Shown here piece by piece: positions 7,332-43,000 of a stretch of 44,042 bases of DNA. The stretch lies in the IMG/VR virus record IMGVR_UViG_3300037516_001153, positions 1 through 44,042 of that record; one strand, written 5' to 3'. The notes under the pieces are model-generated. The model searched no databases and was not told the origin of the DNA. It was given only the letters and a program-made list of their open reading frames with translations. Every line of letters begins with the position of its first letter. Position 1 is the first letter of the stretch. The position numbers and the translations under genes were made by a program. This stretch comes from a virus.

Positions 7332-7338
7332 AAAACAA

Positions 7339-7786: not shown

Positions 7787-7811
7787 TATGTACTTGATTA
7801 ATTATATGGTA

Positions 7812-7819
7812 CAAATGTA
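7812..7819 (-). promoter_or_regulatory. Host-type -7 promoter box TACATTTG
   Basis: The - strand reads TTACATTTGTA, identical over 11 bases to the box before the reverse gene at 3876-4118. It lies 25 bases before the ATG at 7786 and fits the Bacteroidota TAnnTTTG consensus. Confidence 0.5.
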
Positions 7820-7851
7820 AGGATATTTTTGGCAATAAAAAATAATATGAT

Positions 7852-7890
7852 AAAAAAAAAGAGAGAAACTTTAATTCCTCTCTTTTTTTT
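7852..7890 (-). terminator. Terminator of the reverse structural block
   Basis: On the - strand, an AAAAAGAGAG stem pairs with CTCTCTTTTT and runs into a long T tract, directly after the stop codon at 7892. It closes the long reverse operon. Confidence 0.82.
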
Positions 7891-7891
7891 T

Positions 7892-8497: not shown

Positions 8498-8525
8498 ATC
8501 TTTTGTATTATTTTTTTTTAGTTTT

Positions 8526-8533
8526 TATTTATA
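8526..8533 (-). promoter_or_regulatory. Late promoter TATAAATA (reverse)
   Basis: The + strand TATTTATA reads TATAAATA on the - strand, 28 bases before the ATG at 8497 of the Cys-rich protein. The leader would be about 23 bases. Confidence 0.6.
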
Positions 8534-8542
8534 AATATCTAT

Positions 8543-10015: not shown

Positions 10016-10029
10016 AAAATCTTTTAACA

Positions 10030-10041
10030 ATAAATATTTAG
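10030..10041 (-). promoter_or_regulatory. Conserved upstream 12-mer CTAAATATTTAT
   Basis: The same 12-mer stands before the reverse gene starting at 14117. Here it is 14 bases before ATG 10015 and overlaps the stop of the preceding gene. It contains the palindrome TAAATATTTA. It may be a variant late promoter or a translation-start context; the evidence is two copies only. Confidence 0.3.
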
Positions 10042-17635: not shown

Positions 17636-18383
17636 CCGGTTCGTTATCGTATTTACGTAATATCTTACTAATTAATGGGTTTCTAACAATATCGTTTTTA
17701 TCTTTGAATTCGAATGTTGAAACGTAGTCATCATCCCTAAACTTTTCAATCGCGTCCCACAATCCACTTAATGTTTTGTTTTTATACTTATCTGATTGTT
17801 CCACATCTCCTGAAATAAAGAACTTACTGTTAAAACCAATTCTTGTTAAAAGAAGTTTCATTTGACTTGGGGAAGCGTTCTGCCCCTCTTCAAATATTAA
17901 GATTGAATTATCAATATTCATACCTCTCATAAATGCTAACGCAAATACTTCAATAACTTCAATCTCTTTAAGTTTTTCACGAGACTCTTTTCCAATAATT
18001 TTATTTAATAAATAATAAGAGGGGAAAATGTACGGGTCTAACTTTTCTTCAACATTACCGGGTAGAGAACCCAATTTTTCTTCGGCTTCAACGGCCGGTC
18101 TAACAATAATTATTTTCTCGTAGGGTGTTTTTGGGTCTGAAAGTAAATCAATTGCTGCTTTCATTGTTATGTAACTTTTACCAACACCCGCTGGTCCCGA
18201 ACAAACTGTAATTTCACTATCAATTAAAGTATCGTAATACTTTTTTTGATTTATAGTTAAAAACTTTTCTTTAGTTTTTCTCTTGATGATTTGACCAATT
18301 AAATCTTTTTTACTTATTGGTTTACCTGTAGTTTCCGGAGTAGGAGTTGGTTTAGTGTTTTTTGATTTGCTGTATGTAGCCAT
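17619..18383 (-). CDS. phoH: PhoH-like P-loop ATPase
   Basis: A 254-aa PhoH family NTPase, common in T4-like phages. Walker A is GPAGVGKS at 63-70. KIIIVRPAVEAEEKLGSLPG (90-109) is the diagnostic PhoH segment. ILIFEEGQNASPSQMKLLLT (161-180) is the Walker B region with Glu in place of the usual Asp. FFISGDVEQSD (188-198) is sensor I. The first 25 residues are a Lys/Thr/Pro-rich tail not needed for the fold. The cellular PhoH role is in phosphate-starvation or RNA metabolism; the phage role is not settled. Confidence 0.93.
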   Translation of the reverse strand: MATYSKSKNTKPTPTPETTGKPISKKDLIGQIIKRKTKEKFLTINQKKYYDTLIDSEITVCSGPAGVGKSYITMKAAIDLLSDPKTPYEKIIIVRPAVEAEEKLGSLPGNVEEKLDPYIFPSYYLLNKIIGKESREKLKEIEVIEVFALAFMRGMNIDNSILIFEEGQNASPSQMKLLLTRIGFNSKFFISGDVEQSDKYKNKTLSGLWDAIEKFRDDDYVSTFEFKDKNDIVRNPLISKILRKYDNEPDENSN

Positions 18384-18387
18384 TTAA

Positions 18388-19893
18388 TTATTGTTGTATA
18401 ATTTTATGTTTTAATTTATCAACATTTTTCATCGTAAATGGTAATAAATTATTTATGTAGTCATACTGTAACTTCTCAATATTTTTAGGGTCTTCATTTC
18501 TAGTTTGACTCTCAAAATGATACGACACTAAATTAAGGTCACATATATTCCTATAACCTAAGATAGTTGTTTTAAAATTTAACTCAACATCTTCAAAACA
18601 ATTAATATAATTTTCGTTAAAATAGTCACACTGAATAAATACAGATTTTTTTATCATAAGTAACGCACCGGTAGACCCAATAACTTCTGAGATAGAAGAT
18701 GATTTAGGATAATAATTTCTTAAATTATAATGACTAACATCAAATCTATTATTTTGAATTATCGCAAAAATCCCATCGTGTTGAATTGTATTATCTTTAA
18801 AATAAAGCCTCGCACCAATTGTACCTATTTTATTATGAGTTTTAAAATTCTTTAACATACCATAAATAACATTATTAAGAATTTTAATATCGTTATTTGA
18901 AAATAGGAGATACTCATATTCGTCCCCTACGTGATTTTTTACAACATCATTATTAATTTTTGCAAAATTATAATAATCATATTCAATAAGTTTTATATCA
19001 CCAAGTGGTAGTATATTAGTTTTAATCCATTCTTTTTCTGTCTCTGACGACCCAGTGTCGGCAATAAAAACATCAAACAATTTTGAGTTACAGTGTTGAT
19101 AGAATGAATTAACACAATCAAATAACATTTCTACATTACCTTTAGTCGGTATAATTATCGCAACTTTACCAATATTTTTAATAGGTTTTTCTTTAATCTC
19201 AGGGACATATACCTTAGATGGTTTTAAATCTAATGGAAGATTATTACCCCATTTTTCTATAAATTTTTCTCTACTCTCCCAAAATTCTTGATTTGGTTGA
19301 CCAACAGATTGGTGTGTTATTTCAAAAGATGATGTCACACCAATGTTAACTCCGTCTAAATAATTTGGAACACAAAATAAATGGTCATAGAAATGAAATT
19401 TACCAATAGTTTCATCAAATTGATGTTTAATTTTTGTTTTATCAAATGATATGAATAATCCATCAATAGTTACAACAGGAATTAAAAATGGTAGTTTTGC
19501 CGAATAATTATTTACCCATTTTTGTTTACCTTCGGGATGATGGTAAACTTGACCAACCATTGTTTGTTGCATACGTTCCCAGTAAACACCGGATTCCGCA
19601 AAATAACAAGAACCTGCTTTACCTATGATACCATAGTTAGGGTTATTTTCAAAATCGGTTAATAATTTTTTACCCCACCCATTTTCAAGTTTAATATCAT
19701 TATGACAACAAACAACAATATTAAAAAGAGATTCTTTAATTCCTTTGTTATATAGTTCAGACAGGGTATATTGGTTATGGTTAACATATTCTAATATTTG
19801 AACATCTTTTAATCCGGAACTTTGTAACAAATGTTGTTTAAATTTGTTATTATAAATTTCGTCTTTATGTGTTGAGTAAATTATTGTAATCAT
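18388..19893 (-). CDS. Two-domain family 2 glycosyltransferase
   Basis: A 501-aa protein with two GT-A-like halves. The first (about 1-235) opens ITIIYSTHKDEIYNNKF, has NIVVCCHNDIKLENGW as the D-x-D-type region and TIDGLFISFDKTKI in the acceptor half. The second (about 242-475) is a clearer GT2: KVAIIIPTKGNVEMLFDCVN, then LFDVFIADTGSS, then EYLLFSNNDIKI, and STGALLMIKKSVF. Tandem GT2 domains are common in rhamnan-, O-antigen- and phage-type sugar transferases that add alternating residues. It overlaps the methyltransferase stop by one base. Confidence 0.8.
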   Translation of the reverse strand: MITIIYSTHKDEIYNNKFKQHLLQSSGLKDVQILEYVNHNQYTLSELYNKGIKESLFNIVVCCHNDIKLENGWGKKLLTDFENNPNYGIIGKAGSCYFAESGVYWERMQQTMVGQVYHHPEGKQKWVNNYSAKLPFLIPVVTIDGLFISFDKTKIKHQFDETIGKFHFYDHLFCVPNYLDGVNIGVTSSFEITHQSVGQPNQEFWESREKFIEKWGNNLPLDLKPSKVYVPEIKEKPIKNIGKVAIIIPTKGNVEMLFDCVNSFYQHCNSKLFDVFIADTGSSETEKEWIKTNILPLGDIKLIEYDYYNFAKINNDVVKNHVGDEYEYLLFSNNDIKILNNVIYGMLKNFKTHNKIGTIGARLYFKDNTIQHDGIFAIIQNNRFDVSHYNLRNYYPKSSSISEVIGSTGALLMIKKSVFIQCDYFNENYINCFEDVELNFKTTILGYRNICDLNLVSYHFESQTRNEDPKNIEKLQYDYINNLLPFTMKNVDKLKHKIIQQ

Positions 19894-23517: not shown

Positions 23518-24738
23518 TTAATTAATTAAACTTTTGTACCAAGAGGCTCTTTCATCTGTAACCTTATTAAGGTCGTATTTGTCTTTTACTGTGTTATATA
23601 ATCTTTCACCTAACTCTGTAATCATTTCAGGATTTTGAACTAATTTTTTAATTGATTTAGACCAATCACTATGATTTCTTGATTCAGGGATTAAAATAGC
23701 ATTACCATTATCATTAAACTCTCCATTTTTTAAACAATGTACTAAATCAATAGTATATGGTCCAATCTCAGATGCGATTAACGCCTTTTTATAAAACCCC
23801 GCCTCAATAACTTTTAATTGAGATTTCATTCTATTAAAGACGTGATTTTTAATTGGTGCTAAAGATATGTCAAACTTTGAATAATTCATAGCGTAACTTG
23901 TAACGGGTTTTGTCCAAACTCTTAAATAAGGTAATTCAATATTTGATTTATATTCTTCTTCCTTATAAGTTAATAAAAATTTCTTATACTCCTCATCAGT
24001 TGTTTTATAATTATTTGTAAAGATTTCTTCATATTTTACCCAAACGGTTTCGTGTGGCAAAATAGGTCGTTGTTTTTGTTCTTTAGTTTGAGGGTTGATT
24101 TCAGTAACTGTTCCTCTAGTATCAAACCCACAAATAACATATTGTAATTTATCGTTAATGTCTTGATTTTTTTGAACAAACCCTCCTAACAGGTTTAAAT
24201 CTTGTAGGTGAGAAGACCCACCTAACCATCCTATTCTAATTTTATCAGATGGTGGGGTTGGTTGATTAAATTGTGGTTCTTTTGGATTAATTGCGTTTGG
24301 AAAAACAAGGACATTTTTATTTATCTTTCTTATTTCATTTGCAAATATATCGGTGGTTGTTGTAACATATGAAGCAACTTTTAAATTTGCTTTAATTTTC
24401 TCGTCAATTTTATTTTGAACAATAATACTGTGAATTGGGTGGTCTACGGTTGGTAACCAATAATCGTCCAAATCTATAATAACAACAATACCTAACGATT
24501 TTAACCATTCAATTAACCTTGGCGAATTATCATAATCGTTACCAATAGTTCTGTGAGCGTGGATTATCTGATATTTCTTCCAATATCCAATATTGTTCAT
24601 TTGAGGTTCGTAGTCGATATCTACGTGGAAGTCATCAGGATATAAGTTTTGTAAAAATACGTGTGGGTCAATAGACCTAAATTTCCCAACACCTGTTTTA
24701 TCTGAGGGTAATACTAATACATTAATTTTTTCTTTCAT
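23518..24738 (-). CDS. GT-B glycosyltransferase (GT4-like)
   Basis: A 406-aa predicted glycosyltransferase. The N-terminal half has KINVLVLPSDKTGVGKFRS, YQIIHAHRTIG and VVIIDLDDYWLPTVDHP. The second half opens with IRIGWLGGSSHLQDL, has KLQYVICGFDTRG, and ends with SLAPIKNHVFNRMKSQLKVIEAGFYKKALIASEIGPY, in which KxxEAGFYKKA is the donor-binding helix of GT4-type enzymes. It is about the normal length for the family. It is the first gene of this reverse section after a terminator hairpin, so it may have its own promoter, though no TATAAATA is seen upstream. Confidence 0.82.
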   Translation of the reverse strand: MKEKINVLVLPSDKTGVGKFRSIDPHVFLQNLYPDDFHVDIDYEPQMNNIGYWKKYQIIHAHRTIGNDYDNSPRLIEWLKSLGIVVIIDLDDYWLPTVDHPIHSIIVQNKIDEKIKANLKVASYVTTTTDIFANEIRKINKNVLVFPNAINPKEPQFNQPTPPSDKIRIGWLGGSSHLQDLNLLGGFVQKNQDINDKLQYVICGFDTRGTVTEINPQTKEQKQRPILPHETVWVKYEEIFTNNYKTTDEEYKKFLLTYKEEEYKSNIELPYLRVWTKPVTSYAMNYSKFDISLAPIKNHVFNRMKSQLKVIEAGFYKKALIASEIGPYTIDLVHCLKNGEFNDNGNAILIPESRNHSDWSKSIKKLVQNPEMITELGERLYNTVKDKYDLNKVTDERASWYKSLIN

Positions 24739-27494: not shown

Positions 27495-27508
27495 TTTATA
27501 TATAAATA
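27495..27508. promoter_or_regulatory. Divergent late promoter region
   Basis: TTTATATATAAATA holds TATAAATA on the + strand (27501-27508), 33 bases before the GTG start at 27542, and TATATAAA on the - strand (27495-27502), eight bases before the ATG at 27486. This 55-base gap is the only start point visible for both the reverse block and the + strand fibre block. Confidence 0.6.
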
Positions 27509-27541: not shown

Positions 27542-30463
27542 GTGAGTCAAAATATAAATCAATTTCCGAAACCAAATTGGGGGGTAAAATTAGCGTTAGA
27601 CGTTAGTGATATGACGTTATCTACTGATGAAAGAAACTACAAAGAAGAAGTGGTTTTCTCACCTTATTTAATTGCCGAAACATATGGTAACAGATTACCT
27701 ATTAATTTTGATATTAACGATTCAATATCGGTACAACCAATTTCATTATATTATAAGGAATATGACTTTAATAATATTTTTGTTTCAAAAAATTATTATA
27801 ACCCCGAGAATATAGATTTAAGTTGTGTAACAGCAGGGACATCTTGTGACATTGGTCTAACAGGTATTGACAACGGATTGGTTGAATCAATGACAGGACA
27901 ATCAATAACATTCACTAATGGGATTAATGACTATACTAAATTTGATAGATTATCATTTGATAGAAGATTAAAATTATTCCAAGTTACAGGTTATACTAGT
28001 TCTAATGTTAGATTCTCAGGATTTGACGATACTATATTATATGAGGTTGTTAGTAAGAATGATAGTGTAGGTAGATACCACGAATTATATGGTGGATTCT
28101 ATCAGGGATTCTATAGATTATTTGGATACGACTATGATATATTCCCTGAAAGGATGAATAAAGGATGGTCGGTTGAAATGTTATTAAAACCAAGATTATT
28201 CAATGAATATTCACCGAGCAGTGGGGAAACAACTTTAAATGAAATTTACCCAAACAATAAAGATATGTTTTTTTATTTTGGGGCTCGTGCTGAAAATAAA
28301 TTTTATCATTATGCTGACGGGCATCCAAGATGTCTAACAGGTTATACAAGAGTTACATCTGAAGTTACAGGTTTAACGACTTGTGCTTGTTGTGATAATT
28401 CGGTAGTAAATAGTAGATGTATATATGTTTATCCTCCAAGACCGACCAAATCAGATTGTGACGGTTGTATTACTTGTGGGTGGGAATATAAATCACACGA
28501 TTGTCCAATCCCAAGTCCTACTCCGACACCAACACCTACTCCGGTACCATCACCATCAAATTGTGAAACAATCAGTGCTTGTACACCGGGATGTACTTGT
28601 TTAATATGTACAACTTGTAACGATTGTAATCCTTGTATTGATTGTAATTTAAACCCTGGTTCTGTTGAAAATACTTGTGAAATCGACCCATTATTTGATT
28701 CAATGTCAAACGCATTGGCTTTCAAATTATGTGGTAGTCCAAATAATCCTCAAATAGGTGTAAGAGTATTAAGATTTACTGGAGGTTGTGAAACTAGTGG
28801 AACTTGTTCGACAACAGGTATTACTTACACAACAGGATATACAATAGACAACTATTGTTCACCACCGATTTACCCATATTGTTTACAACATAACCCATCG
28901 TATTTAGATTTGGAACATTGGTTTCACATTACTGCCGTTTGGGAAAGATATACTTGGTTAGATAGTTGTGATTTATGGTATAGAGGTGGTATTGGAGATA
29001 TTAGTGAGGAAAAATTATTAGATGGTTTAGCCGATAATTCCGTGTCGTTAATTACGGTACCTTATACACAAGATTGTGGTAAAGACCCAGAAAAAATACA
29101 ATTAGTTAATCTTAATGAAAAATGGTTAATTGATAAAGATTATAGAAAAGGTAGATTAAAAATCTACATCAATGGTAGGATATTTTATACTATTGAGGAT
29201 TTTGAGGAAATAATTCCAAGAGCTTTAAGTACTGATAAGGAAAAACAAGTTGGGGTACCTTATAATATTTCGTGGGGTGGTGGGACTCAAGGTTTAAGAG
29301 AGAATTTGACATTCTCATCTACAACAGGGACGACTTATATTCAAGACCCTGAGTGTTTACCAACAAATGATTTAGTTGGAACAACATTTAGCGGGTTAAC
29401 TACTGATATATTATTGGAACAAAATTTTGCGGGTTCATTTGATGGGGGGATATCTCAATTTAGAATGTATGTTGAACCATTATCTGCGGATGAAGTTAAA
29501 CATAATTTTAATTTATTAAAAGATACGTTTAATATGTTTAATCCAGATTGTCCCGATTGTGGAGAAGTATGTCCGGTTAATGATTTTACATATGTAATAA
29601 CAACACCGGAAGAACTACCTCCATTTGATTTAGGTAGGATTTATATTCCGGATGAGAGAGATAATAATTATTTAATTAAAGACCATTTTGAATTAATTAA
29701 AAGTGTAACTAGAGTTGTAAGACGACCCTTACCAACAAAAACACCTACACCTACAAAAACAAGAAGTCTTGTACCAACACCTACTCCAACACCAACAAAA
29801 ACAATAAATATTACCCCGACACCTACCCCGACAATTACACCGACAAAAACAAGAAGTATTTTACCAACCCCAACACCTACGCCAACAATTGTTGGATTAA
29901 CAAGTAGATATTGGGATGCTAATGTTTGGTGGGGAAATCAAGGAAATACTCCTCAATGTGTAGGATATGCTTGGGCACATTGGATTGCTGACGGACCTAT
30001 AGTTCATTTAGGTGTTCAACCACCGGTAAATCCGACAACAATATATAAAGAAGCTCAAAAAGTTGACCAATGGCCTGGTGAGAATTACGCAGGAACTTCG
30101 GTTAGGGGTGGTGCTAAATATTTAAACACAACTCGTAAAATTGGTAATTATTATTGGGGTTACGATGTTCAAACATTAATAAATACATTATTACAAATTG
30201 GGCCGGTAGTTGTTGGTACTAATTGGTATCGTAATATGTTTTACCCAAATTCAAATGGAGTGATTAGTATTGGAGGTTCATTGGCTGGTGGTCACGCCTA
30301 TGTGATAAATGGTGTTGATACAGTTAATAGATTATTTAGAATAAAGAATAGTTGGGGCCAATCTTGGGGTAAATCGGGTCACGCATTTATCTCATTTACA
30401 GATATGACAAGATTAATAAATGAACGAGGTGAAATATGTTTGGCCGTTGAAAATAATTTTTAA
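27542..30463 (+). CDS. Tail-fibre/adhesion protein with LamG-like and papain-like protease domains
   Basis: A 973-aa multidomain virion protein (GTG start). Residues 1-260 look like a beta-rich structural region. A Cys-rich part (264-379, with CACC, CDGCITC and [12 protein letters not shown]) is split by a Pro/Thr linker (324-339). Residues about 450-660 have a LamG/concanavalin-like layout: [23 protein letters not shown], then [21 protein letters not shown] second Thr-Pro linker (729-782) leads to a C-terminal papain-family (C1A-like) domain: NQGNTPQC (Gln800, Cys806, same six-residue spacing as papain Gln19-Cys25), [11 protein letters not shown] (His918) and [10 protein letters not shown] (Asn936). 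No signal peptide or pro-domain is seen. Likely role: host surface binding plus protein cleavage, or self-processing. Confidence 0.82.
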
Positions 30464-30466
30464 AAG

Positions 30467-31456
30467 ATGAGTTCAATAATAATACAAAGTGTAAGTCATA
30501 TTGGTGAGACAGCAAATATCATATTTAAACCGTCAAAAGTTAATGTGGTGATTAATTTAGGTAATCAAATTCTACCTTATGAGTTTGACCCTACATTATT
30601 ATCTCCTCCTCGTAACGTATACGGAACTTATACTATTTTAGTTGAAGGGTCAGATTGTCCTATAATAATGAATGTACCTGAACCTACACCGACACCGACA
30701 CCGACACCGACAATAACAAGAACAGCAACACCAACAGTTACTCCAACAATGACACCTACACCAACATTTGACCCTTGTAAAGTACCGACACCAACACCAA
30801 CTGTTACAAAAACTCAAACACCAACACTAACGGTTACCCCAACAAGAACACCAACACCTACGTTTGACCCTTGTAAAGCACCAACACCGTCAATTACTCC
30901 AACAAATACTGTTACTCCAACAATTACTTTAACCCCTACCGTGACACTAACATCAACTCCAACCCCAACACCAACATTAGAACCATTAAATTTAGAACTT
31001 TTTGTTGAATATGAACCGGGTTCAATAATCTCGTATTATACATTAGTATTAAACCGTCCACATAGTGAAGAAATAAATGTTACTTTTGAAAATGTTCTAA
31101 ATGTTTATAGTGGTTCTCCAATTACAATATTTACAGGTGTTACGGTTAGTTTGGGAAGTTTATCAGGACAAACTATTGTTACAATAAATGAAGATTATAA
31201 CAACTACACAGGAGAGCCGTTTTTTAGTCAATTATCAGGAACTCCGGTTGGAAGTACATATGAAATTATTGTTATTCCTTTTATTCCTACGCCAACGCCA
31301 ACACCTACATTTACAAGTACCCCTACACCAACATTTACAAGTACTCCTACACCAACTCCTACACCTTCAACACCAATTGACATTTTAATTAACCCAATTT
31401 TAATCGGTAATGATGAATATATAAGTGTTGGGAATAATGAATATTTAGAGTATTGA
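30467..31456 (+). CDS. Thr-Pro linker protein (fibre component)
   Basis: A 329-aa protein: N-terminal domain (1-70), Thr-Pro linker (about 71-172), beta-sandwich-like domain (174-275, LFVEYEPGSIISYYTLVLN, then VTVSLGSLSGQTIVTI), second Thr-Pro linker (277-304) and a short end with NDEYISVGNNEYLEY. The N-terminal domain (INLGNQILPYEF, then YGTYTILVE) matches that of the protein at 36080 ([12 protein letters not shown], then YGQYKIYLP), so they are paralogues. The linker repeats TPTP units with differing codons. It starts three bases after the protease-fibre stop and is co-transcribed. Likely a fibre or fibre-tip subunit. Confidence 0.7.
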   Translation: MSSIIIQSVSHIGETANIIFKPSKVNVVINLGNQILPYEFDPTLLSPPRNVYGTYTILVEGSDCPIIMNVPEPTPTPTPTPTITRTATPTVTPTMTPTPTFDPCKVPTPTPTVTKTQTPTLTVTPTRTPTPTFDPCKAPTPSITPTNTVTPTITLTPTVTLTSTPTPTPTLEPLNLELFVEYEPGSIISYYTLVLNRPHSEEINVTFENVLNVYSGSPITIFTGVTVSLGSLSGQTIVTINEDYNNYTGEPFFSQLSGTPVGSTYEIIVIPFIPTPTPTPTFTSTPTPTFTSTPTPTPTPSTPIDILINPILIGNDEYISVGNNEYLEY

Positions 31457-31483
31457 TAATCCATCTTAAAAAATTAAACTATT

Positions 31484-31491
31484 TATAAAAT
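31484..31491 (+). promoter_or_regulatory. Putative late promoter (TATAAAAT)
   Basis: Within TATTTATAAAATA, 12 bases before the ATG at 31504. The box is one base off the late consensus in a 47-base gap that otherwise holds no gene. Confidence 0.45.
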
Positions 31492-31503
31492 AAAAAACAA
31501 ATT

Positions 31504-33891
31504 ATGTCATTAACAGGTAAAACAATTGGACAACTAACATATCTTTCGGGAGTAACAACGGATACATTATTTCCTGTAGAATTGAGCGGTGATACATACC
31601 ATATAGCATATTCGGCATTCACTAATTCAAACTATAACGAAGGAACTTACGATGAGTTATATTCATTCGCCACAGGTGAAACACTAACCGCAGGAAGTTA
31701 TTATTTAATGACTGACTTCCAAACGTGTTACGACCAACCAAACTATGATGTTAATGGTGCCCCAATAACTATCGGTAATTATAAGACAGGAACAACAGAA
31801 CCTATATTATTGTTGGCAATTTCAACAACAGGATTCTCCCCTACAGTTTATTCAACACTATATCCACAAGATAAAATCTCTTATGATATTACTTGGAATG
31901 CAACTGAAGTTACAGATAATCCTGCTAAAGGTAGAATTACTGAAAGAATTGACGAGTTTAATAACAGAACAGATTATGACCATAGACAAGTGGTATTTAA
32001 ACGATACGAAACATCACTTTCAAGTGGTATTTATACAGTAATTAAAGATAATGGGAATCCTTACATTGATGATATTCCAACTTTTGGAACAGGTTGTTAT
32101 TCTAATAAAATAGGGAACTTTTATACCACCTTAGATTTAAACAATACAGGTTTTATTTTATCAAATAATATATTTGATGATGATTGTTGGGACAATACAA
32201 CAGGAGCAGATTTTTATAATAATACAATAGGCTCATTAGTTTACGAAAATAAGTTTGGAGATTTATGTCACGATAATGTAATACAAGGAGATGCTTATAA
32301 CAATGTAATGAATAATAATTTTAGTTTAAATGTAATAGGTAGTCAGTTTTATAATAACTCTATTTTTAACGGATTTAGATTAAATGTAATAGGTTCACAA
32401 TTTCAAGGAAACGAAATTTTAAGTGGATTTAGAGAAAATACAACATCTGATGGATTTGTTAAAAATAGAATTGGGTATGATTTTACAAATCCAAGCATTA
32501 TAATTGGTACAAACTTTTTAGATAATCAAATAGGTAATAATTTTAGTTTAAATGTTGCTATTGGAAATAGTTTTACTAATAACGTAATAGGAGATAATTT
32601 TCAAACAAATTCAATAGCAGATAATTTTTTAAACAATCAAATAAAAAATTATTTTCTAAGTAATACAACAGGTAATGTTTTCTCATCTAATAATATAGGA
32701 GATAATTTTAATACTAATACCATATATTTTGAGTTTAGAAAAAATTCAATATTAAATGGTTTCAATCTAAACACAATTGGGGATGTTAATAATTCAGGTC
32801 TTCTTTTTGAGAACAATCAAATAATGAATAACTTTAAAGGAAATGACATTCAAGGTAATTTTTGGAGTAACCAAATTAAAACAGATTTTAAGGGTAATGA
32901 TATATTTGAGGAGTTTGGATTTAATAATATAGGGTTTGGGTGTTCACCAAATACTTTTAGTGGTAATACATCACATAACAATATTGGGGATTATTTTTCA
33001 TTTAATACTTGTTATGGTTCATTTTTATACAATACACTGGGTACAGATTTTCGAAATAATGAAATACAAGATGGATTTGGTTTTGGTGGTTCATATAATC
33101 AGGGAAATAGAATTGGAAATTATTTTAATGATAATACTATTGGTGAATACTTTTACAACAATACAATTCCTGATAACTTTTACAATAACACAATTGGGGA
33201 ATACTTCCAATGGAATATTGTTGATACCTATGTAGATAATATCGATTTCACCACAAATTATGGAAACATAAGTGGTATTACTTATTTTGCTACAGGAAAC
33301 ACCGCTACAGATTCTAGTTATGGTAATGTTGGTGGTACAACTAATGGTAATGGTGTTAACGCATTATTTCAAATTGATGTGATTAGTGGAAGTGTTATTA
33401 ATGTTAGTGTAAATAATTCAGGTAAACTATATGTTATTGGTGATACAATAACAATATTAGGTACATCTATTGGAGGTGACACAGGTATTATTACTACATT
33501 TTCAGGGAATGGGATTGGAATAACAGGGGTTACAGGTTCATATCCTAATATATTTGCTCAAGGTACGGGTAGTGGTGAAAACGCATCTTTTGATGTTACA
33601 GTTACTAGCGGAGTAGTTAGTAGTGTAGTGTTAAATCAGGGAGGTACAGGTTATTTAGTTGGAGAGATATTAACAATATCTGGAGATGTGTTTGGTAGTA
33701 CGGAAGACATAACCATAATTGTTGAATCCGTTTATTCTGATGATGTAATCATTACGGTTACAAGTATTAGTCAAAACCCTTCAGTTTATGAGTTATATAC
33801 TTGTAATATTTTCAAAAACTCGAATCTAACAAATAGATTATCTTACTACGACGCAAGTGATGTCTTAACAATAAAAAATATTAACGAATAA
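31504..33891 (+). CDS. Fibre protein with nonapeptide-repeat beta-solenoid
   Basis: A 795-aa protein. Residues 1-195 form an N-terminal beta-rich domain (probable attachment). Residues about 200-575 consist of roughly 40 nine-residue units of the form N-x-I-G-x-x-F-x-x, for example NVIGDNFQT, NSIADNFLN, NQIKNYFLS, NNIGDNFNT, NTIGEYFYN. The strict Asn, Ile and Phe positions suggest a coiled beta-solenoid with inward Ile/Phe and Asn ladders. The C-terminal part (about 605-760) has two copies of a GxNAxFxIxVxSGxVxxVxVN module followed by a GDTITI-like strand, a pattern common in phage structural proteins. Host-surface recognition or a stiff fibre shaft is the likely job. Confidence 0.75.
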   Translation: MSLTGKTIGQLTYLSGVTTDTLFPVELSGDTYHIAYSAFTNSNYNEGTYDELYSFATGETLTAGSYYLMTDFQTCYDQPNYDVNGAPITIGNYKTGTTEPILLLAISTTGFSPTVYSTLYPQDKISYDITWNATEVTDNPAKGRITERIDEFNNRTDYDHRQVVFKRYETSLSSGIYTVIKDNGNPYIDDIPTFGTGCYSNKIGNFYTTLDLNNTGFILSNNIFDDDCWDNTTGADFYNNTIGSLVYENKFGDLCHDNVIQGDAYNNVMNNNFSLNVIGSQFYNNSIFNGFRLNVIGSQFQGNEILSGFRENTTSDGFVKNRIGYDFTNPSIIIGTNFLDNQIGNNFSLNVAIGNSFTNNVIGDNFQTNSIADNFLNNQIKNYFLSNTTGNVFSSNNIGDNFNTNTIYFEFRKNSILNGFNLNTIGDVNNSGLLFENNQIMNNFKGNDIQGNFWSNQIKTDFKGNDIFEEFGFNNIGFGCSPNTFSGNTSHNNIGDYFSFNTCYGSFLYNTLGTDFRNNEIQDGFGFGGSYNQGNRIGNYFNDNTIGEYFYNNTIPDNFYNNTIGEYFQWNIVDTYVDNIDFTTNYGNISGITYFATGNTATDSSYGNVGGTTNGNGVNALFQIDVISGSVINVSVNNSGKLYVIGDTITILGTSIGGDTGIITTFSGNGIGITGVTGSYPNIFAQGTGSGENASFDVTVTSGVVSSVVLNQGGTGYLVGEILTISGDVFGSTEDITIIVESVYSDDVIITVTSISQNPSVYELYTCNIFKNSNLTNRLSYYDASDVLTIKNINE

Positions 33892-33893
33892 AA

Positions 33894-34856
33894 ATGGAAA
33901 CAAAATACATAGTAAATAACTTATCGGGACAAACCATAAATGGTAATATAACAATTAATGGGAATTTAAGTGTTACCGGAGTTACAACAGGAAGTTTAGC
34001 AACTTACAAAGCACTACTAACTCAGATAGGTTCTCAGACTGGCACTACCTTAAATGATTTTGGTGGTTTTAATGATGGTTTTATTATAGGTGAAACTTAC
34101 ACGATAGTCACTTATGTTAGTGGTGATAGTTTTAGTAATATTGCTAATGTAACAAGTGGAGTTATAGACACAACGGGATGTGTATTCATTGCAACAGGAG
34201 AAACACCAACAAATTGGGATAACGGTTCTACTTTAGTGTCTAGTGGTGATTTAGCGGTAACAGTATTAGAAAATAACTTGGGATTCGATATTGAGTGGAT
34301 TGAGGATTTTACAGGTATTTACATCGCTTTTAATTCAATTACAGGACCACTGTATAATACTTTTAATAGAAACACAACATTTGTTTTAAGTGGAAATGTT
34401 GCAATACCATTTTTTGGTCCTACCACAATAGATACTTTCGTATTACCCTATACTGTTATTGAAAAAGACGATAGTATTCTTCTTGCGGTTTTTGATGTTA
34501 GTGTTCCTGAACCAGTTTCTAATAGTTTGTATTATTTCCCTATTGAGATTCAAATTATACAAGATACTGATACCACACCGACAGTAATTAGTGGAACTAC
34601 AGCATCATTTCCTTTCACAAATGTAAGTATTGATTTTTATTGCGGAGATATGTTTATTCAATCTTTTTACACAAGTGGTGGTACTATTGTTAATGACATA
34701 TCTGAAGTTGTTACCGTATTGAATACAGATACTAATACAAGTTTTCTTGGTACGTTTTCTGACGATGGGGGGGGCATAATTTTAACTATGGCAACAAATC
34801 TTGAAACTCAGTTCTGTGCTAATAGCACATTAACATTTTATGTTTTCAATGACTAA
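33894..34856 (+). CDS. Virion structural protein (fibre-associated)
   Basis: A 320-aa, Thr/Ser/Asn-rich, beta-strand-rich protein. The start (YIVNNLSGQTINGNITINGN, then LSVTGVTTGSLATYKALL) resembles the N-terminal repeats of phage tail proteins that lead into a fibre. GDSFSNIANVTSGVIDTTG and FIATGETPTNWDNGSTL (about 81-118) look like a small beta domain, and two further beta domains follow (130-215 and 220-320). There are few Cys (149th base region aside, near residues 98, 256 and 311). It starts two bases after the solenoid stop and is co-transcribed. The family is not recognised; the role is from context. Confidence 0.65.
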   Translation: METKYIVNNLSGQTINGNITINGNLSVTGVTTGSLATYKALLTQIGSQTGTTLNDFGGFNDGFIIGETYTIVTYVSGDSFSNIANVTSGVIDTTGCVFIATGETPTNWDNGSTLVSSGDLAVTVLENNLGFDIEWIEDFTGIYIAFNSITGPLYNTFNRNTTFVLSGNVAIPFFGPTTIDTFVLPYTVIEKDDSILLAVFDVSVPEPVSNSLYYFPIEIQIIQDTDTTPTVISGTTASFPFTNVSIDFYCGDMFIQSFYTSGGTIVNDISEVVTVLNTDTNTSFLGTFSDDGGGIILTMATNLETQFCANSTLTFYVFND

Positions 34857-34879
34857 TAAAAAAATTAAAACAGAAAAAA

Positions 34880-35122
34880 ATGATAAAATATATTAAAAGA
34901 AAAAGTGATAATAAGTTTCTACAATCTTTAGAAAACGATATTTGGGTTGATAACTCAAAGGAGGCTTATGAAATGACACACAGAGAGTGTGAGGATACTA
35001 AAACTACATTACTTAATACATATACTTCTGAAGAAATTACTGAAGTTTTTAATTTGTTCAAGAGTAAACCGAAATCAAGAGAAGAAAAAAAAGAACTACT
35101 TAATTTATTAAAAAATAAATAA
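34880..35122 (+). CDS. Small hypothetical protein
   Basis: An 80-aa basic protein. It starts with strands (MIKYIKRKSDNKFLQSLEND, then IWVDNSKEAYEMTHREC) and ends with a helical half (EITEVFNLFKSKPKSREEKK). No family is recognised. It begins 23 bases after the structural gene with an A-rich leader and is followed after one base by the next small gene, forming a short group of three non-structural-looking genes inside the fibre module. Confidence 0.6.
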   Translation: MIKYIKRKSDNKFLQSLENDIWVDNSKEAYEMTHRECEDTKTTLLNTYTSEEITEVFNLFKSKPKSREEKKELLNLLKNK

Positions 35123-35123
35123 T

Positions 35124-35372
35124 ATGAGAATAAATATTTTAACAGAAAACGATAAGGTAGAACAAGTTAGAGAAGCTTGGGTAAATAAAAATGTAATGAA
35201 AATACCTTGTTCCCCAACAGGAGAAGAACCTGCAACTCATTGGTTTTGCACAATGGCCGGCTCTGAAGAACAAATGATGAAAATTTACAATAAAAAAAAC
35301 TTATCAATAATGGAGTTAGAAATCGGTCCAAAAGAATTTCTTAATAAATGGGGAGTGAAGATTATAAAATAG
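35124..35372 (+). CDS. Small hypothetical protein
   Basis: An 82-aa protein of unrecognised family with a compact, globular look: MRINILTENDKVEQVREAWV, then KIPCSPTGEEPATHWFCTMAGS (two Cys, His and Trp), then LSIMELEIGPKEFLNKWGV. The central His/Cys residues could form a small active or metal site, but nothing diagnostic is visible. Its end overlaps the oxygenase-like gene by 25 bases. Confidence 0.6.
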   Translation: MRINILTENDKVEQVREAWVNKNVMKIPCSPTGEEPATHWFCTMAGSEEQMMKIYNKKNLSIMELEIGPKEFLNKWGVKIIK

Positions 35373-35980
35373 TAAAAGGGTTTATTAACGATGATGAGGT
35401 TTTACAACTCGTTAGTTGGGTTGATTTGTTAAATCCGGAAGACGGAGACCCCAATTACCACTTAAGTGAAATTTCAAAGGTACTAAAGGGTAAATCTTGT
35501 ATTATAGACATTTCAAATACTGAACTTACAAACTACATTACAAATTTTCAATCGGTTTCTAAAGTTTCAAACCAAGATGTCCCACAAATTATAATGAACA
35601 TCTTTGAAAGAATCTCAAAGGAAAATAATATACCCCTTGATAATGTATTTCTTCAAGCGGTTGATATGAATAAAGGTGGTAGAATACAACCACATTACGA
35701 CGCATCTATTGAAGGGTACATTAATTACAAATGTAATATAAGTGTTTTATCTGAAGATTATAAAATTTTCATAGATAAATCATCACCAACAATAGAACAA
35801 AAAGATTTGTATTGTTTTGAGGCCTCATTATTTAAACATTGGACAGAGGAGTTTAACTCTCGAAGAGTTTTTTTAAGTTTTGGTTTTTTAGTACCATACA
35901 ATGTTTTAGGTAGAAATGAAAATGACCCAAGAATAAGATTAAGCCGTAGAATTGAAAATTATTTTCAAAATAAAAAATAA
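35348..35980 (+). CDS. 2-oxoglutarate/Fe(II)-dependent oxygenase-like protein
   Basis: A 210-aa protein with the double-stranded beta-helix oxygenase pattern: GGRIQPHYDASIEG (His116 and Asp118, the H-x-D pair), then FKHWTEE (His164, distal ligand), then SRRVFLSFGF (Arg172 or Arg173 for the 2-oxoglutarate carboxylate). NYKCNISVLS and YKIFIDKSS fit the intervening strands. The family includes prolyl hydroxylases and DNA/RNA demethylases. Its position just before the collagen-like gene suggests virion-protein hydroxylation, but the collagen repeats here contain very little Pro, so Ser/Asp/Asn or a host substrate is equally possible. The start overlaps the previous gene by 25 bases. Confidence 0.72.
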   Translation: MGSEDYKIVKGFINDDEVLQLVSWVDLLNPEDGDPNYHLSEISKVLKGKSCIIDISNTELTNYITNFQSVSKVSNQDVPQIIMNIFERISKENNIPLDNVFLQAVDMNKGGRIQPHYDASIEGYINYKCNISVLSEDYKIFIDKSSPTIEQKDLYCFEASLFKHWTEEFNSRRVFLSFGFLVPYNVLGRNENDPRIRLSRRIENYFQNKK

Positions 35981-35994
35981 TAATTAACAAATAT

Positions 35995-36024
35995 TAAATC
36001 CTCCAAATTAAATGGGGGATTTTA
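35995..36024 (+). terminator. Terminator after the oxygenase-like gene
   Basis: AAATCCTCC pairs with GGGGGATTT around an A/T loop and runs into TTAATTTTA. It ends the transcript before the tandem late promoters at 36046-36074. Confidence 0.75.
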
Positions 36025-36045
36025 ATTTTATACACGTCTACTATT

Positions 36046-36074
36046 TATATAAAATACAAAACTATTTATAAATA
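36046..36074 (+). promoter_or_regulatory. Tandem late promoter boxes
   Basis: TATATAAA (36046-36053) and a perfect TATAAATA (36067-36074), the latter five bases before the ATG at 36080. With T4 spacing the second would start transcription at or next to the A of the ATG. Confidence 0.65.
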
Positions 36075-36079
36075 AAAAA

Positions 36080-37060
36080 ATGGCAAAGACCTTTAGAATA
36101 TTTACGGACAATTATAGCGGGTATAGTGGAAGCATTATATTTTACCCAGCAACTGGTGGTGTGATAAATTTAGGTACACATATTTTACCGTATGATTATG
36201 AAACTGATGATTATTATGGTCAGTACAAAATATATTTACCACAAGTTAAAAAAACTTGTATATTAGATTTTTATTTACCAACATTAACACGTACACCAAC
36301 ACCAACGCCAACTCCAACTCTAACACCAACATTAACAAATACACCAACCGTGACTCCAACGATAGGTGCAAGTCCTACCCCAACAATGACTGTTACTCCA
36401 ACAATGACAGAAACTCCAAGTGCTTCTCCAACACCTACATTAACAATTACACCAACAGAAACCCCAACAAACACTCCAACACCAACTCCAACACCGGTAT
36501 ATTTTGCCAATTTATTTATAGAACCTATGAGTGGTTCACAAGATATTGGTCAATGGATGTATGATGGTGGGTCTAATTTCTTTGGATTCACAAATAATAG
36601 TCAACCAGCTCAAGACCAAACACAGTTTGATATTGATATGAATAGATATGTTGACTTTAGTGGATGGACTAGTGGGTTATTCCCGTCAATTATTAGACAA
36701 AGTGTACCACAAAGTAATGGTGGATTTGACAGTTTTGGACATCCAATTGTTGCATATAATTTTACAACCACTGAGATACTTCAAGGTACTATACCTGAAT
36801 CATCTTGGTATACTTGGATTATTCCAATATCATTAACCAATAATCAAACACAAACAGCTATTGATGTTAATAGTGATGGTGATGCAAATTCATTAATTAC
36901 AGTATTAACAGAAAGAACTATAAGTCAATATACATTTACATATACAGGAACAACAATTCATCCGGTAACATATAAAGTTTATACAACTTTCCCTAATAGA
37001 TTGTTTGTCTTAAACAATAATCAAAGTATTTATTTTAGAGGAAATACGGTTTCTTCGTAA
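36080..37060 (+). CDS. Thr-Pro linker protein, paralogue of the 30467 protein
   Basis: A 326-aa protein: N-terminal domain (1-67, [20 protein letters not shown], then YGQYKIYLP), Thr-Pro linker of about 75 residues (68-142) made of TPTPT, TPTLT and TPTMT variants, and a C-terminal beta domain (143-326, rich in Asn, Thr, Tyr and Phe, with [20 protein letters not shown]). The N-terminal domain is homologous to that at 30467, while the C-terminal domains differ, as in exchangeable fibre tips. It is the first gene after a terminator and two late promoters, and precedes the collagen-like gene by 19 bases. Confidence 0.72.
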
Positions 37061-37079
37061 CTATTAATTTGAAAAAAAT

Positions 37080-40000
37080 ATGTCTAACTTAAACTATAAA
37101 AATCCATTATCTCCTTTAATATCAACAGGTAGTCAATCTTTACTACGTTCAAGTACTTTTGGAACAACATTCAGCGTGCTAAATACGGGGGGTTTTATGG
37201 AGGTTTATACTCTAAACGATTTAGTATATACAATCCCACCTAGTTTTGTTGGGGATGTTGAATTTACAGGTAATACAATTCCAATTCAATTTTATAAAGG
37301 TAATGGTGGGACATTTTCATTTGATACTTTAACGTTAAATTCTGATAACATTTCATCAGGAAGACGACGTTTGGGTATGTTAGTGTATGTTTATCAAACT
37401 AACCAAATTTATCAATACTCAATAGACAATTACAATACTTTATGGTCTAACGCTCTTGCGGCATCAGGTATTGGTGGTAACACTGTTGTAATATCAGACT
37501 TTGGGACAACCGTTAAAAATAATTCACCTGAGGGTCAAACTTTTATCGATACTTGGACAGGTTCAACTATTGAAGGTGTTAATGGTGTTACAAGACCAAA
37601 CGCTCGATGGAGAATTTTAGCAACATCATCTACAGACATATTTGTTACAGGAGGTACTTATTTTTCTGCAACATCAACATTAGATTTATATAGAAATGAC
37701 GGTAATACCGTATCTGTTACTGGTATTACATCCGGTGGAGGAGTTGGTGTTAGTGGTATTTCGGGTTTATCAGGATTAGAAGGTAATGTTGGTATTTCAG
37801 GATTGCAAGGTCTTTCAGGATTAATTGGAGACTCAGGTCTTTCAGGTGATAGCGGTATAAGTGGTGATTCCGGTTTATCAGGTTTAAGTGGTACCGGACC
37901 ATCAGGTTTAAGTGGGGATTCCGGTTTAGAAGGTATTTCAGGATTGCAAGGTCTTTCAGGATTAATTGGAGACTCAGGTCTTTCAGGTGATAGCGGTATA
38001 AGTGGTGATTCCGGTTTATCAGGTTTAAGTGGTACCGGACCATCAGGTCTTTCAGGTATAAGTGGTCAACAAGGTATCAACGGTGTAAATGGAGGTGCAA
38101 TTTTCTTTTTTAACACAACAGAATCACAATCACCATATTTAGAGTTTTCAACGGTTCCTAAAATTACCGTAGAGAGTAGTGCAACAACATTAGTCAGTGC
38201 TAGTACAATAGCGACAATACAAACATATATGACACCCCCAGACGTACCGGGTGTTACAGCAATACCCGCAGGGTTTTGGAGTTTTTACTTACATTTAAGT
38301 AAACAAACTCAAATATCAACATTTAACGCGTTTGTCGAGGTTTATCTTAGAACAACGGGTGGAACGGAAAGTTTTTTATTTCAAACAGACCCAGTCAATG
38401 TTACTGGTTATGGAACATTAGCAGAAATGGTTGTGACCGATGTTTATCAAACAGGTTATACTCAAAATTTCTCAGATAGAATTGTTGTAAGAGTTAAGGC
38501 ACAAAATTTATCCCCCTCTAATAGACAAATAACGTTATTATCTCAAAGTAATGTTCATTACTCATTTGCTCAAACAACGTTAGGGACAGGAGTTTCAGGA
38601 GTTTCAGGGTTAAGCGGGATTTCAGGGTTAATCGGGACTAGCGGAAATAGTGGATTATCAGGAGATAGTGGATTAAGTGGTGAATCAGGTTTAAGTGGAA
38701 CAGGACCATCGGGTATTAGCGGTTTAAGTGGAACAGGTGATTCAGGTATTTCAGGAGATAGTGGTATTAGCGGGTTAAACGGGGTCTCAGGACTTTCAGG
38801 TGATAGTGGTTTATCGGGAGATAGTGGTATTTCAGGTTTAATCGGGGATAGCGGAATTTCAGGTTTAGTTGGTCCCGATGGTATCGCCGGAGTTGATGGA
38901 GCATCAGGTATTAGCGGTTTATATGGTTCAAGTGGTATATCAGGAAACTCAGGTATTAGCGGTTTAAGTGGTGATGGTGGTATATCAGGTATTTCAGGTG
39001 ACTCAGGTTTAAGTGGTATTTCAGGGTTATCAGGAGATAGCGGTTTAAGTGGAGATTCAGGGTTATCAGGGGATAGTGGTTTATCAGGATTATCAGGAGA
39101 CTCAGGTCTATCAGGCGATTCAGGTCTATCAGGTATTAGTGGATTATCAGGTGATTCCGGTATTAGTGGATTAAGTGGTGATTCTGGTATTAGTGGATTA
39201 TCAGGTGATATCGGTTTAAGTGGTTTATCGGGGGACTCAGGTCTTTCAGGTTTAAGTGGTATATCAGGAGATTCGGGTATTAGTGGATTATCAGGTGATA
39301 GTGGTATTTCCGGTTTAAGTGGAGACTCAGGTCTTGAAGGAACCTCAGGTCTTTCAGGTGATAGCGGTTTAAGTGGTTTATCGGGGGACTCAGGTCTTTC
39401 AGGTTTAAGTGGTAATTCAGGTCTTTCAGGAGATTCAGGTATTAGTGGATTATCAGGTGATTCCGGTATATCAGGTATTAGTGGAATAAGCGGAGATTCA
39501 GGTTTATCAGGTATTAGTGGAATAAGCGGAGATTCAGGTTTATCAGGTGATAGTGGTATTTCAGGTTTAAGTGGTATTTCAGGTTTAAGTGGATTAAGTG
39601 GTGATTCAGGTATCTCAGGATTATCGGGAGATAGTGGTGTTTCAGGACTTGAAGGGACTTCGGGACTTTCGGGTGACTCAGGTATTTCAGGTATCTCAGG
39701 TGATAGTGGATTAAGTGGAGACTCAGGTCTTTCGGGTGAATCAGGTATTTCAGGTTTATCGGGAGAGTCAGGGTTATCAGGCCTTGAAGGTATATCAGGT
39801 ATTAGTGGATTATCAGGTGATTCAGGTATATCAGGTTTATCAGGTGACAGTGGTATTTCAGGACTAAGTGGGGACTCAGGTCTTTCAGGAGATAGTGGTA
39901 TTAGTGGTTTATCAGGTGACAGTGGTATTTCAGGACTAAGTGGGGACTCAGGTCTTTCAGGAGATAGTGGATTAAGTGGTGATAGTGGTATTTCAGGATT

Positions 40001-43000
40001 AGTAGGTGCAGATGGTATTGCAGGTGTAGACGGGGCGTCAGGTATTAGTGGTATATATGGTTCAAGTGGTATCTCAGGTTTATCCGGAGATAGTGGATTA
40101 AGTGGGGATTCAGGTTTGTCAGGGCTTTCGGGAGATAGTGGTATTTCAGGTCTTGAAGGAACATCCGGTATTAGTGGTTTAAGTGGAGATTCAGGTATTT
40201 CAGGAATAGAGGGAACATCAGGACTTTCAGGAGATAGTGGTCTTTCAGGTTTAAGTGGTGATTCAGGATTATCGGGAGATAGTGGTATTAGTGGATTGTC
40301 AGGAGATAGTGGTATTTCAGGACTAGAAGGAACATCAGGTTTATCAGGAGACTCAGGTATTAGCGGATTAAGTGGTATTAGTGGTGACTCAGGATTATCA
40401 GGTGATAGCGGATTAAGTGGTGTTAGTGGTATTTCAGGTTTAAGTGGTGATTCAGGATTATCGGGAGATAGTGGTATTTCAGGTCTTGAAGGGACTTCGG
40501 GACTTTCAGGTTTAAGTGGTGATAGTGGTATTTCGGGTATTGAAGGGACATCAGGTATTAGTGGATTATCAGGTGATTCAGGTTTATCAGGGGATAGTGG
40601 TATTTCAGGATTATCTGGCGATTCAGGAATTAGTGGATTATCAGGAGATAGTGGTATTTCCGGTTTAAGTGGAGACTCAGGACTTTCAGGTGACAGCGGT
40701 ATATCAGGATTGTCAGGAGATAGTGGTCTGTCGGGAGATTCAGGTATTAGCGGTTTAAGTGGAGACTCAGGAATTTCAGGAGACTCAGGTATTTCGGGAC
40801 TTTCAGGGGATAGTGGTATTTCAGGTTTAGTTGGTGCCGACGGTATTGCCGGAGTTGATGGAGCATCAGGTATTAGTGGTATAAATGGTTCAAGTGGTAT
40901 TTCAGGAACTTCAGGTATTAGCGGTTTAAGTGGAGATAGTGGAATTAGTGGTTTATCGGGTGATAGTGGCGTTTCCGGTATTGAAGGGACATCAGGTATT
41001 AGCGGATTAAGTGGGAACTCAGGTATTTCAGGCTTAAGTGGTGATAGTGGTATTTCGGGTATTGAAGGAACATCAGGTCTTTCAGGTATTAGTGGACTAA
41101 GTGGTGCCAGCGGATTATCGGGAGACTCAGGTATCTCAGGACTAAGCGGTACATCAGGTATTAGTGGGTTATCAGGAGATAGTGGTCTATCGGGTTTAAG
41201 TGGTAATAGTGGAATCTCAGGATTATCAGGAGAATCAGGTGTTAGCGGATTAAGTGGCGACTCAGGTTTATCAGGTGATTCCGGGTTAAGTGGAACATCG
41301 GGATTATCAGGAACAAGCGGTATTAGCGGAACTTCAGGTATCAGTGGTTTATCAGGGACTAGCGGATTAAGTGGGGACTCAGGTATTAGTGGTTTATCCG
41401 GAGATTCAGGTATTTCAGGATTGTCAGGTACTTCAGGTTTAAGTGGAGATTCAGGTATTTCAGGTTCAAGTGGAATTTCAGGTCTTTCAGGAGATTCAGG
41501 TTTATCGGGAGACTCAGGACTTTCAGGTGACAGCGGTATATCAGGTTTGTCAGGTGATAGTGGATTAAGTGGTGACTCAGGACTTTCAGGAGATTCGGGT
41601 ATTAGTGGTTTATCGGGGGATTCAGGTCTTTCAGGTGATAGTGGTATTAGCGGATTAAGTGGAGACTCAGGTATAAGTGGTATTTCAGGAGACTCGGGAC
41701 TTTCAGGTATTAGCGGATTAAGTGGTGACTCAGGTCTTTCAGGAGATAGTGGTCTTTCAGGGTTAATTGGTCAACAAGGTATAACTTCAGGACAAATTTA
41801 CTATTTAAATGAAAGTCAAAATTCTGACGTTTCAGGGTATAAAGTTTTAACAACAATCCCTTCAACGGCAACCACACAAACATTAACAACAAATTTAACA
41901 AGTAACCAACAGAATAAATTGGTTTCTGATTATATAACACCACAACTAGGTTTTGCGGTAATTCCTGCTGGTGTACAAAGATTTCATATACATTATTTAA
42001 AACAAGCCTCAAATGATGATATTGATGCTTATGTGGAAATACAATTAGCCAATTCAGCAGGTACCCCAATAGGACCAACATTTACAACAAACATTGGATT
42101 AATTGGATGGGTTAGTAGTGTGGTACCGGTTGAGATTAATCTTGACGTTGTATTATCAACAACAACTATTGACCCAACAAATAGAATGATAGCTAGACTA
42201 TATTTGAATAGTAATGAGTCATCAGCAAAATCAGTAGTATATTACACAGAAGGTAATTCATATTATTCATTTGCTCTTACAACAGTAGGAGCTATTGGTA
42301 ATAGTGGTATTTCAGGATTATCAGGTATTAGTGGATTGTTAGGTATTTCAGGATTAAGCGGTATATCAGGAACTGTTGGTACTAGTGGTATCAGTGGTTT
42401 ATCAGGGACTGTTGGTACTGGTGGTATTTCAGGTTTAAGTGGAACATCAGGACTTTCGGGGACAATCGGTATTAGTGGTACTTCAGGTTTATCAGGTATT
42501 AGTGGATTGTTAGGTATTTCAGGATTAAGCGGTATATCAGGAACTGTTGGTACTAGTGGTATCAGTGGTTTATCAGGAACAAGCGGATTAAGTGGTACTT
42601 CGGGTATTAGTGGAATCTCAGGGACTGTTGGTACTTCAGGTATCAGCGGTTTATCGGGAACTCTTGGAACATCAGGTACTAGCGGATTAAGTGGTACATT
42701 AGGTACTTCAGGTATCAGCGGTATTTCAGGAACATTAGGAACTTCAGGTATCAGCGGTATTTCAGGAACATTAGGAACTTCAGGTATTAGCGGTATTTCA
42801 GGTACTAGCGGATTAAGTGGTACATTAGGAACATCAGGTATCAGCGGTTTATCGGGAACTCTTGGAACATCAGGTATTAGTGGTTTATCAGGTGCTAGCG
42901 GATTAAGTGGTACATTAGGTACATCAGGTATTTCAGGTACAAGCGGTTTAAGTGGAGCCTCAGGTATCTCAGGAACTTCAGGAGTTAGTGGATTAAGCGG

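Follow-up and report, generated by a model that had tools for sequence, protein, structure and literature searches.

Genomic setting of a fibre-like protein with a protease end

Why should a fibre-like protein of a large, uncultured, T4-like phage end in a papain-like cysteine protease? The question is raised by one open reading frame (ORF) in a stretch of viral DNA of 44,042 nucleotides (IMG/VR record IMGVR_UViG_3300037516_001153), analysed at its full length and called the window here. The ORF lies on the plus strand, runs from a GTG start at 27542 to a stop at 30463 and encodes 973 amino acids in a frame that is open throughout. Its parts, and the gene that follows it, are listed below.

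27542..29608, plus strand: carrier body, residues 1-689, fibre-like and possibly of the Laminin-G/concanavalin type
29624..29725, plus strand: conserved LGRxYxxDxRDxxYLI segment (DxR segment), residues 695-728, which opens the peptidase module and resembles a pro-segment
29726..29887, plus strand: Thr-Pro-rich linker, residues 729-782, separating the catalytic domain from the DxR segment
29888..30463, plus strand: predicted C1A (papain, xylellain-type) catalytic domain, residues 783-973 and stop, from Pfam, PHROG, fold and profile
29939..29941, plus strand: Gln800, oxyanion-hole Gln, pairing with the xylellain Gln
29957..29959, plus strand: Cys806, nucleophile, pairing with the xylellain Cys
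30293..30295, plus strand: His918, pairing with the xylellain His
30347..30349, plus strand: Asn936, pairing with the xylellain Asn
30467..31456, plus strand: next gene, Thr-Pro-rich protein 'MSSIIIQSVSHIGETANIIFKP', with relatives directly after the body in 5 of the 6 loci viewed

The window starts with a gene for the Gp23 capsid protein. Of 20 related records tested for Gp23, 18 contain it, the exceptions being those of L005 and L037. The nearest matches of the window's protein are the capsid proteins of Microcystis phage Mel-JY01 and Flavobacterium phage immuto (40-43%), a match that does not settle the host. The run from 27542 to 44042 looks fibre-like by eye, with Thr-Pro-rich proteins, a repeat-rich protein of 795 amino acids and an open-ended SGLSGDSG-repeat protein. 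The 795-residue protein (31504-33891) has many 'NNIGDNF'-like repeats, looks like a beta-helix by eye and is matched by neither Pfam nor PHROG at E 0.01; the open-ended ORF (37080-44042) exceeds 2,300 amino acids and consists mostly of SGLSGDSG-type collagen-like repeats. A block on the opposite strand holds two glycosyltransferase genes (18388-19893 and 23518-24738) and a PhoH gene (17619-18383). The sequence TATAAATA at 27501-27508, 34 bases upstream of the start codon of the ORF, resembles a T4 late promoter; enrichment of this sequence in the window is not clear (16 occurrences against 11.0 expected, with 10 of 100 shuffles reaching as many).

The C-terminal domain is a predicted xylellain-type peptidase

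A preliminary description of this DNA, made from its letters, had read a papain-like cysteine protease at the C-terminus of the ORF, with Gln800, Cys806, His918 and Asn936 in papain order and spacing, and had proposed to check it by an HMM search of residues 785-973 and by structure prediction. Both approaches bear it out. In Pfam, PF00112 (Peptidase_C1) matches the ORF at E 3.3e-6, with 27.8 bits where the cut-off is 20.7, and is the only domain found at E 0.01, with C1_2 following at 0.15 and no match to the NlpC/P60 profile; the same PF00112 profile is matched by all 20 body-carrying proteins scanned at E <=0.5 (best 3.6e-7). The PHROG family phrog_16701 ('peptidase') matches residues 785-970 at E 2.6e-50. 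An AlphaFold2 model of residues 690-973 gives ten-residue pLDDT means of 80-98 across the catalytic domain and a papain fold for which xylellain of Xylella fastidiosa (PDB 3OIS) is the best match in both Foldseek (E 2.0e-10) and VIA-align (Z 21.4, rmsd 2.9, 210 residues aligned), the top VIA-align matches being xylellain and cathepsins with Z of 16-21. Xylellain also heads the PDB sequences when these are searched with a profile of 53 aligned modules (E 3.5e-16), in an alignment that pairs all four catalytic residues.

The four residues are found at the positions first read, separated in the ORF by 6 residues from Gln to Cys and by 18 from His to Asn, a spacing close to that of papain, and they are invariant in all 53 aligned modules. 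To place them in a wider family, we draw on two scans of viral contigs for relatives of the peptidase, which returned 78 distinct loci (the best 80 of 81 matches) and 80 loci (the best 80 of 146). These contain at least 88 distinct ORFs; four cut ones (L001, L052, L065, L151), one with a frameshift (L064) and the distant bacterial ones (L128-L131) were left out, and 79 were kept. The ordered Gln-Cys-His-Asn pattern occurs in 79 of these 79 ORFs (among the matches listed). In L064 the frameshift, at 5001-5565, splits the peptidase domain, which is intact in other copies. The catalytic domain has dN/dS ratios of 0.112 and 0.119 against its two nearest relatives and 0.183 against L005, which argues that it is kept by selection. 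Profiles and predicted fold together confirm a C1A (papain) peptidase domain of the xylellain type at the C-terminus of ORF 27542-30463. A chance catalytic motif is ruled out by profile, fold and conservation. The likeness to xylellain, the closest protein by both fold and profile, extends to the fold and the catalytic residues at an identity of about 20-22%; the domain of the window differs in that it ends a phage protein of 973 amino acids and has a Thr-Pro linker inside its module.

The carrier body is conserved among viral loci

The body that carries the domain is conserved in 41 viral loci, and the 'LamG-like fibre' label that it was first given is weakly supported by sequence matches. 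Of the 20 body-carrying proteins scanned, two match the Laminin_G_3 profile, at E 0.0034 at best, and that of the window is not one of them; phrog_8510 ('virion structural protein') matches residues 611-660 of the ORF at E 0.0023, a hint only. The body has no homologue at E 1e-3 in 50,697 phage records, and its profile finds no match among PDB sequences, even at E 5. A full-length AlphaFold2 model of the 973 residues is poor (mean pLDDT 42.9), and Foldseek lists for it the papain domain as the sole match and none for the body. A Cys-rich stretch (28382-28678, residues ~281-379) with CxxC repeats and a Thr-Pro run of its own interrupts the body and varies among relatives.

The conserved module begins before the linker

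The preliminary description had placed the protease after a Thr-Pro linker and had seen no pro-domain. The linker is real and precedes the catalytic domain: 39 of its 54 residues are Pro, Thr or Ser, and its pLDDT is below 50 over most of its length in the model of residues 690-973. The conserved module, however, starts earlier, at about residue 695, with the DxR segment. Asp704 and Arg706 of this segment are invariant in 53 of 53 aligned modules, alongside the catalytic residues and their neighbours, and a loose form of the motif is found in all 79 ORFs kept (among the matches listed); the segment is also predicted with a pLDDT of 89-93 at residues ~700-719, despite the disordered linker downstream. 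All 21 standalone proteins have a distance of 29-37 residues from the DxR segment to the catalytic Gln. Of the 58 fused ORFs, 44 have one of 33-41 and the remaining 14 one of 56-99 (among the matches listed); the ORF of the window, with a distance of 96, is one of these 14. The extra residues are rich in Pro, Thr and Ser in all 14. These distances across the 79 ORFs therefore show the linker to be an insertion inside an otherwise fixed module and not a spacer at its edge. Without it, the module has about 220 residues, with a short N-terminal segment and no long pro-domain of the I29 type.

In C1A zymogens, an N-terminal pro-segment runs through the active-site cleft. When the module model is aligned with VIA-align, the rows for procathepsins and other pro-forms start at model residue 1 and have about 200-210 residues aligned (judged from end points only), many rows for mature forms have 175-192, and two for mature cathepsin B have 195-196. 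The absence of a pro-domain was thus overstated, since in the model the conserved segment upstream of the linker superposes partly on procathepsin pro-regions; this partial overlap is a hint, not proof, that the DxR segment may be a short pro-segment.

The peptidase is an optional cassette on the body

Could the enzyme serve the protein that carries it? Among the 41 body loci, the peptidase lies in the same ORF in 13, in a neighbouring ORF in L107 and in another ORF of the record in L108; the other 26 have no peptidase match anywhere in the record, records of 160, 176, 272 and 308 kb included, although, as the loci are record fragments with many near-copies, 26 of 41 is not a population frequency. 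Over residues 1-686, peptidase-less bodies are up to 88% identical to that of the window. At the DNA level, the homology between L080 and L091 ends at 7052/2088, the end of the body, and restarts at 7920/2106, in the next gene; L092, with the peptidase, and L095, without it, share 90% identity over the 8 kb that precede the junction. Long arrays of DUF285 (BspA-like) repeats take the place of the peptidase in L082 (ORF 4980-10916, E 6.1e-97) and L094 (ORF 4980-9329, E 3e-136), and short ends do so in L091, L105 and L106. In L107 (5001-8627) the body gene is interrupted, and its C-terminal end and the peptidase form a separate ORF of 435 amino acids with another N-terminus.

These pairs bear on the idea, raised in the preliminary description, that the protease processes the fibre itself. 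Such a domain might act like the Peptidase_S74 of tailspikes, aiding the folding of the fibre and then cutting itself or the fibre during assembly, and its C-terminal position on several fibre-like carriers, as well as a DxR segment that precedes a long and possibly cuttable linker, would fit. Peptidase_S74 is likewise of protease type and is exchanged between the C-termini of various tailspike and fibre proteins, but it has another fold and another catalysis and is a self-cleaving folding chaperone, not a host-directed enzyme; the S74 chaperone is a trimer, whereas enzymes with a papain fold are monomers, and the Pfam scan of the ORF of the window contains no Peptidase_S74 match. Moreover, the body occurs at 88% identity in records without any detected peptidase, and the module is also a separate gene in 21 of the 79 ORFs kept (among the matches listed). 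Because bodies of up to 88% identity lack the enzyme, and the slot holds DUF285 repeats or a short end in other relatives, it is unlikely to be needed to mature the body, and self-processing in general seems to us quite improbable. We reject fibre maturation that requires the peptidase on account of the 26 of 41 body loci in records without a peptidase match.

The same module recurs on several carriers

When carriers were classed by BLAST of their N-terminal parts, the 79 ORFs kept fell into 58 fusions on seven carrier types and 21 standalone proteins (among the matches listed). The window-type body accounts for 36 of the fusions, followed by the types named 'MDFFIKK' (9), 'MASTVV/MPSVV' (6), 'MYCNTD' (3) and 'MIKLIQR' (2), and by one fusion each of the L032 and L033 types (all among the matches listed). 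An oddity of one phage is ruled out by the at least 58 fused ORFs among the 79 kept. Most of the genes to which the peptidase is fused are fibre-like or belong to tail regions. Proteins that by eye start like 'MSSIIIQSVSHIGETANIIFKP', the product of the gene after the ORF, carry the peptidase in L014, L035, L036, L041, L042 and L048, and one carrier type has a match to the baseplate domain BppU_N in 1 of 7 members, under the cut-off at E 0.08.

A quick tree of the catalytic part suggests, at the level of sequence, that the peptidase has been swapped between carrier genes. The eight labels need 14 changes on it, against a possible minimum of 7 and an average of 38.3 in shuffles; support is mixed, with 23 of 75 inner branches starred, and the starred branches force only 2 changes for each of the three main carriers. 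In L014, part of the C-terminal end of the carrier body accompanies the peptidase onto a different carrier. A plausible step to a fusion is seen in L011, where the gene of a standalone peptidase and a gene whose relatives are peptidase-fused in L008 and L010 overlap by 4 bases.

Large phage C1 proteins have already been deposited, as an 829-amino-acid 'Peptidase_C1 domain containing protein' from an uncultured phage in BFVD attests. A scan of bacterial genomes matched 45 stretches, 7 of which are relatives of the peptidase. The closest (L126, QHXS01000048.1, an 'Acidobacteria' MAG, 2881-3576) has exactly the sequence of the protein on viral contig L066, which makes it likely that a phage contig was misbinned into this MAG.

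Relatives in isolate phages are standalone and sometimes lie in lysis cassettes

The 14 homologues viewed in isolate phages are all separate proteins of about 205-275 amino acids, and 0 of 14 is fused to a fibre. The DxR segment is present in 11, those in lysis cassettes included. A simple His pattern misses eight of the 14; in seven of these, GGH or GH stands ahead of NSW where it is expected, and the ZL12 protein is divergent, with its His within GGHE and without the Q-5-C and NSW patterns. The standalone C1 peptidases of phrog_16701 (XacN1 ORF382, RAS14, Streptomyces phage Wakanda and the Gordonia lysis-cassette 'cysteine protease') are homologous to the domain of the window over nearly its whole length, at best with 39-40% identity (39% for XacN1), and they differ from it in being separate proteins where the window has a fusion to a fibre-like body. 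Passages of the literature describe short xylellain-type C1A peptidases acquired by tailed phages (PMC10380794), and jumbo phages with concanavalin-like domains and with NlpC/P60 domains associated with the tail (PMC7824862). The virion-associated NlpC/P60 hydrolases described there share the papain-like fold and are sometimes tail-associated, but they belong to another family and have peptidoglycan substrates. Phage peptidases of the xylellain type are thus already known, and in the open-access full-text literature we found no account of a fibre with a C1A domain fused to it or serving as its exchangeable tip.

The gene neighbourhoods of the isolates bring in the main rival reading, in which the domain is an envelope lysin that cuts stem or cross-bridge peptides of peptidoglycan, or wall-linked proteins, either at entry from the particle or at lysis from inside. 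Six of the 14 homologues adjoin lysin A and/or holin genes (Gordonia phages GMA2, Morgana, Mareelih, Lilbeanie and Sixama, and Arthrobacter phage Mufasa8), the GMA2 protein is annotated 'putative lysin', and a BFVD match from Gordonia phage OneUp is named endolysin. In the corresponding Gordonia and Arthrobacter isolate loci (L213-L217, L222), the C1 peptidase lies in the lysis cassette, directly before an annotated holin in five. Passages of the XacN1 paper list the C1 peptidase among potential lytic enzymes (PMC5852040), and those on virion proteomics report a chitinase, a lipase and an M23 peptidase and do not name the C1 peptidase (ORF382) among them (PMC5852040). On the other side, 8 of the 14 homologues are not clearly in a lysis cassette: seven lie elsewhere, for instance beside a metallophosphoesterase and near ribonucleotide reductase, after terminase or among tRNAs, and ZL12 is ambiguous. 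The six that are in lysis cassettes are standalone and at most about 28-35% identical to the domain of the window. C1A enzymes are protein endopeptidases, and a fibre tip is badly placed for reaching peptidoglycan. We therefore regard an envelope lysin as unlikely for the fused domain. The isolate gene settings and the naming in XacN1 nevertheless imply that the family may be directed at the cell envelope in general, where its substrates could be surface proteins or wall peptides.

The varied places of the standalone relatives, such as early or metabolic gene blocks, would also suit an effector that acts inside the cell or in the lysate on proteins of the host or of rival phages, for which a fibre fusion is merely a convenient site of expression. 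The fused partners, being mostly fibre-like or tail-region genes, argue against this, and we give such an effector very little weight.

Discussion

We propose that the domain is an optional, exchangeable protease tip, displayed by the virion on a fibre-like protein, that would cut proteins of the host surface, and we put the probability of this reading at roughly 0.5. As read from the sequence, a predicted xylellain-type C1A peptidase with its own short DxR segment occupies the C-terminal slot of a fibre-like protein, with a Thr-Pro leash of 54 residues between that segment and the catalytic domain in the window. The carrier would sit on the particle, at its tail or fibre, and the enzyme would be active, cutting during adsorption such surface proteins as receptor-masking layers, adhesins, S-layer or outer-membrane proteins, and this could give the phage access on some hosts. 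The DxR segment, as a minimal pro-segment, might keep the enzyme latent until needed, as its weak structural overlap with pro-regions suggests. The cassette is gained, lost and moved between genes, possibly by recombination at the Thr-Pro repeat DNA.

The reading draws on the fold and the catalytic residues, purifying selection, optional presence, the sharing of the slot, swapping between carriers, the tail-gene setting and the T4-like context; most simply, an accessory enzyme in a variable C-terminal slot would act outside, on the host surface. Against it count the isolate homologues, with none of 14 fused and 6 of 14 in lysis cassettes, the passages of the XacN1 paper whose virion list is without the C1 peptidase (PMC5852040), and the mixed support of the tree, with its 23 starred branches of 75 and two forced changes per main carrier. 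Because the 50,697 phage records yielded no counterpart of the body among isolates, we infer its location on the particle from its neighbours and from weak matches.

A more specific and distinctly speculative form of the protease tip, to which we assign a low probability, is a latent warhead: the DxR pro-segment would be anchored in the fibre, and the catalytic domain, on its Thr-Pro leash, would be unlocked at contact with the cell to clear protein layers around the receptor, in a cassette traded between tail-region genes. To our knowledge, the enzymes described from phage fibres act chiefly on sugars. If the warhead reading were true, surface proteolysis would be a host-range trait parallel to that of polysaccharide depolymerases; a recurrent, exchangeable protein-cutting tip would likewise mean that surface proteins, too, are cleared or shaved during adsorption. 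A leash between a pro-like segment and its enzyme is a testable idea for how such an enzyme may be kept quiet, and the question of surface proteolysis itself can be tested in natural pairs of phages that share a body, one having the cassette on it and the other lacking it.
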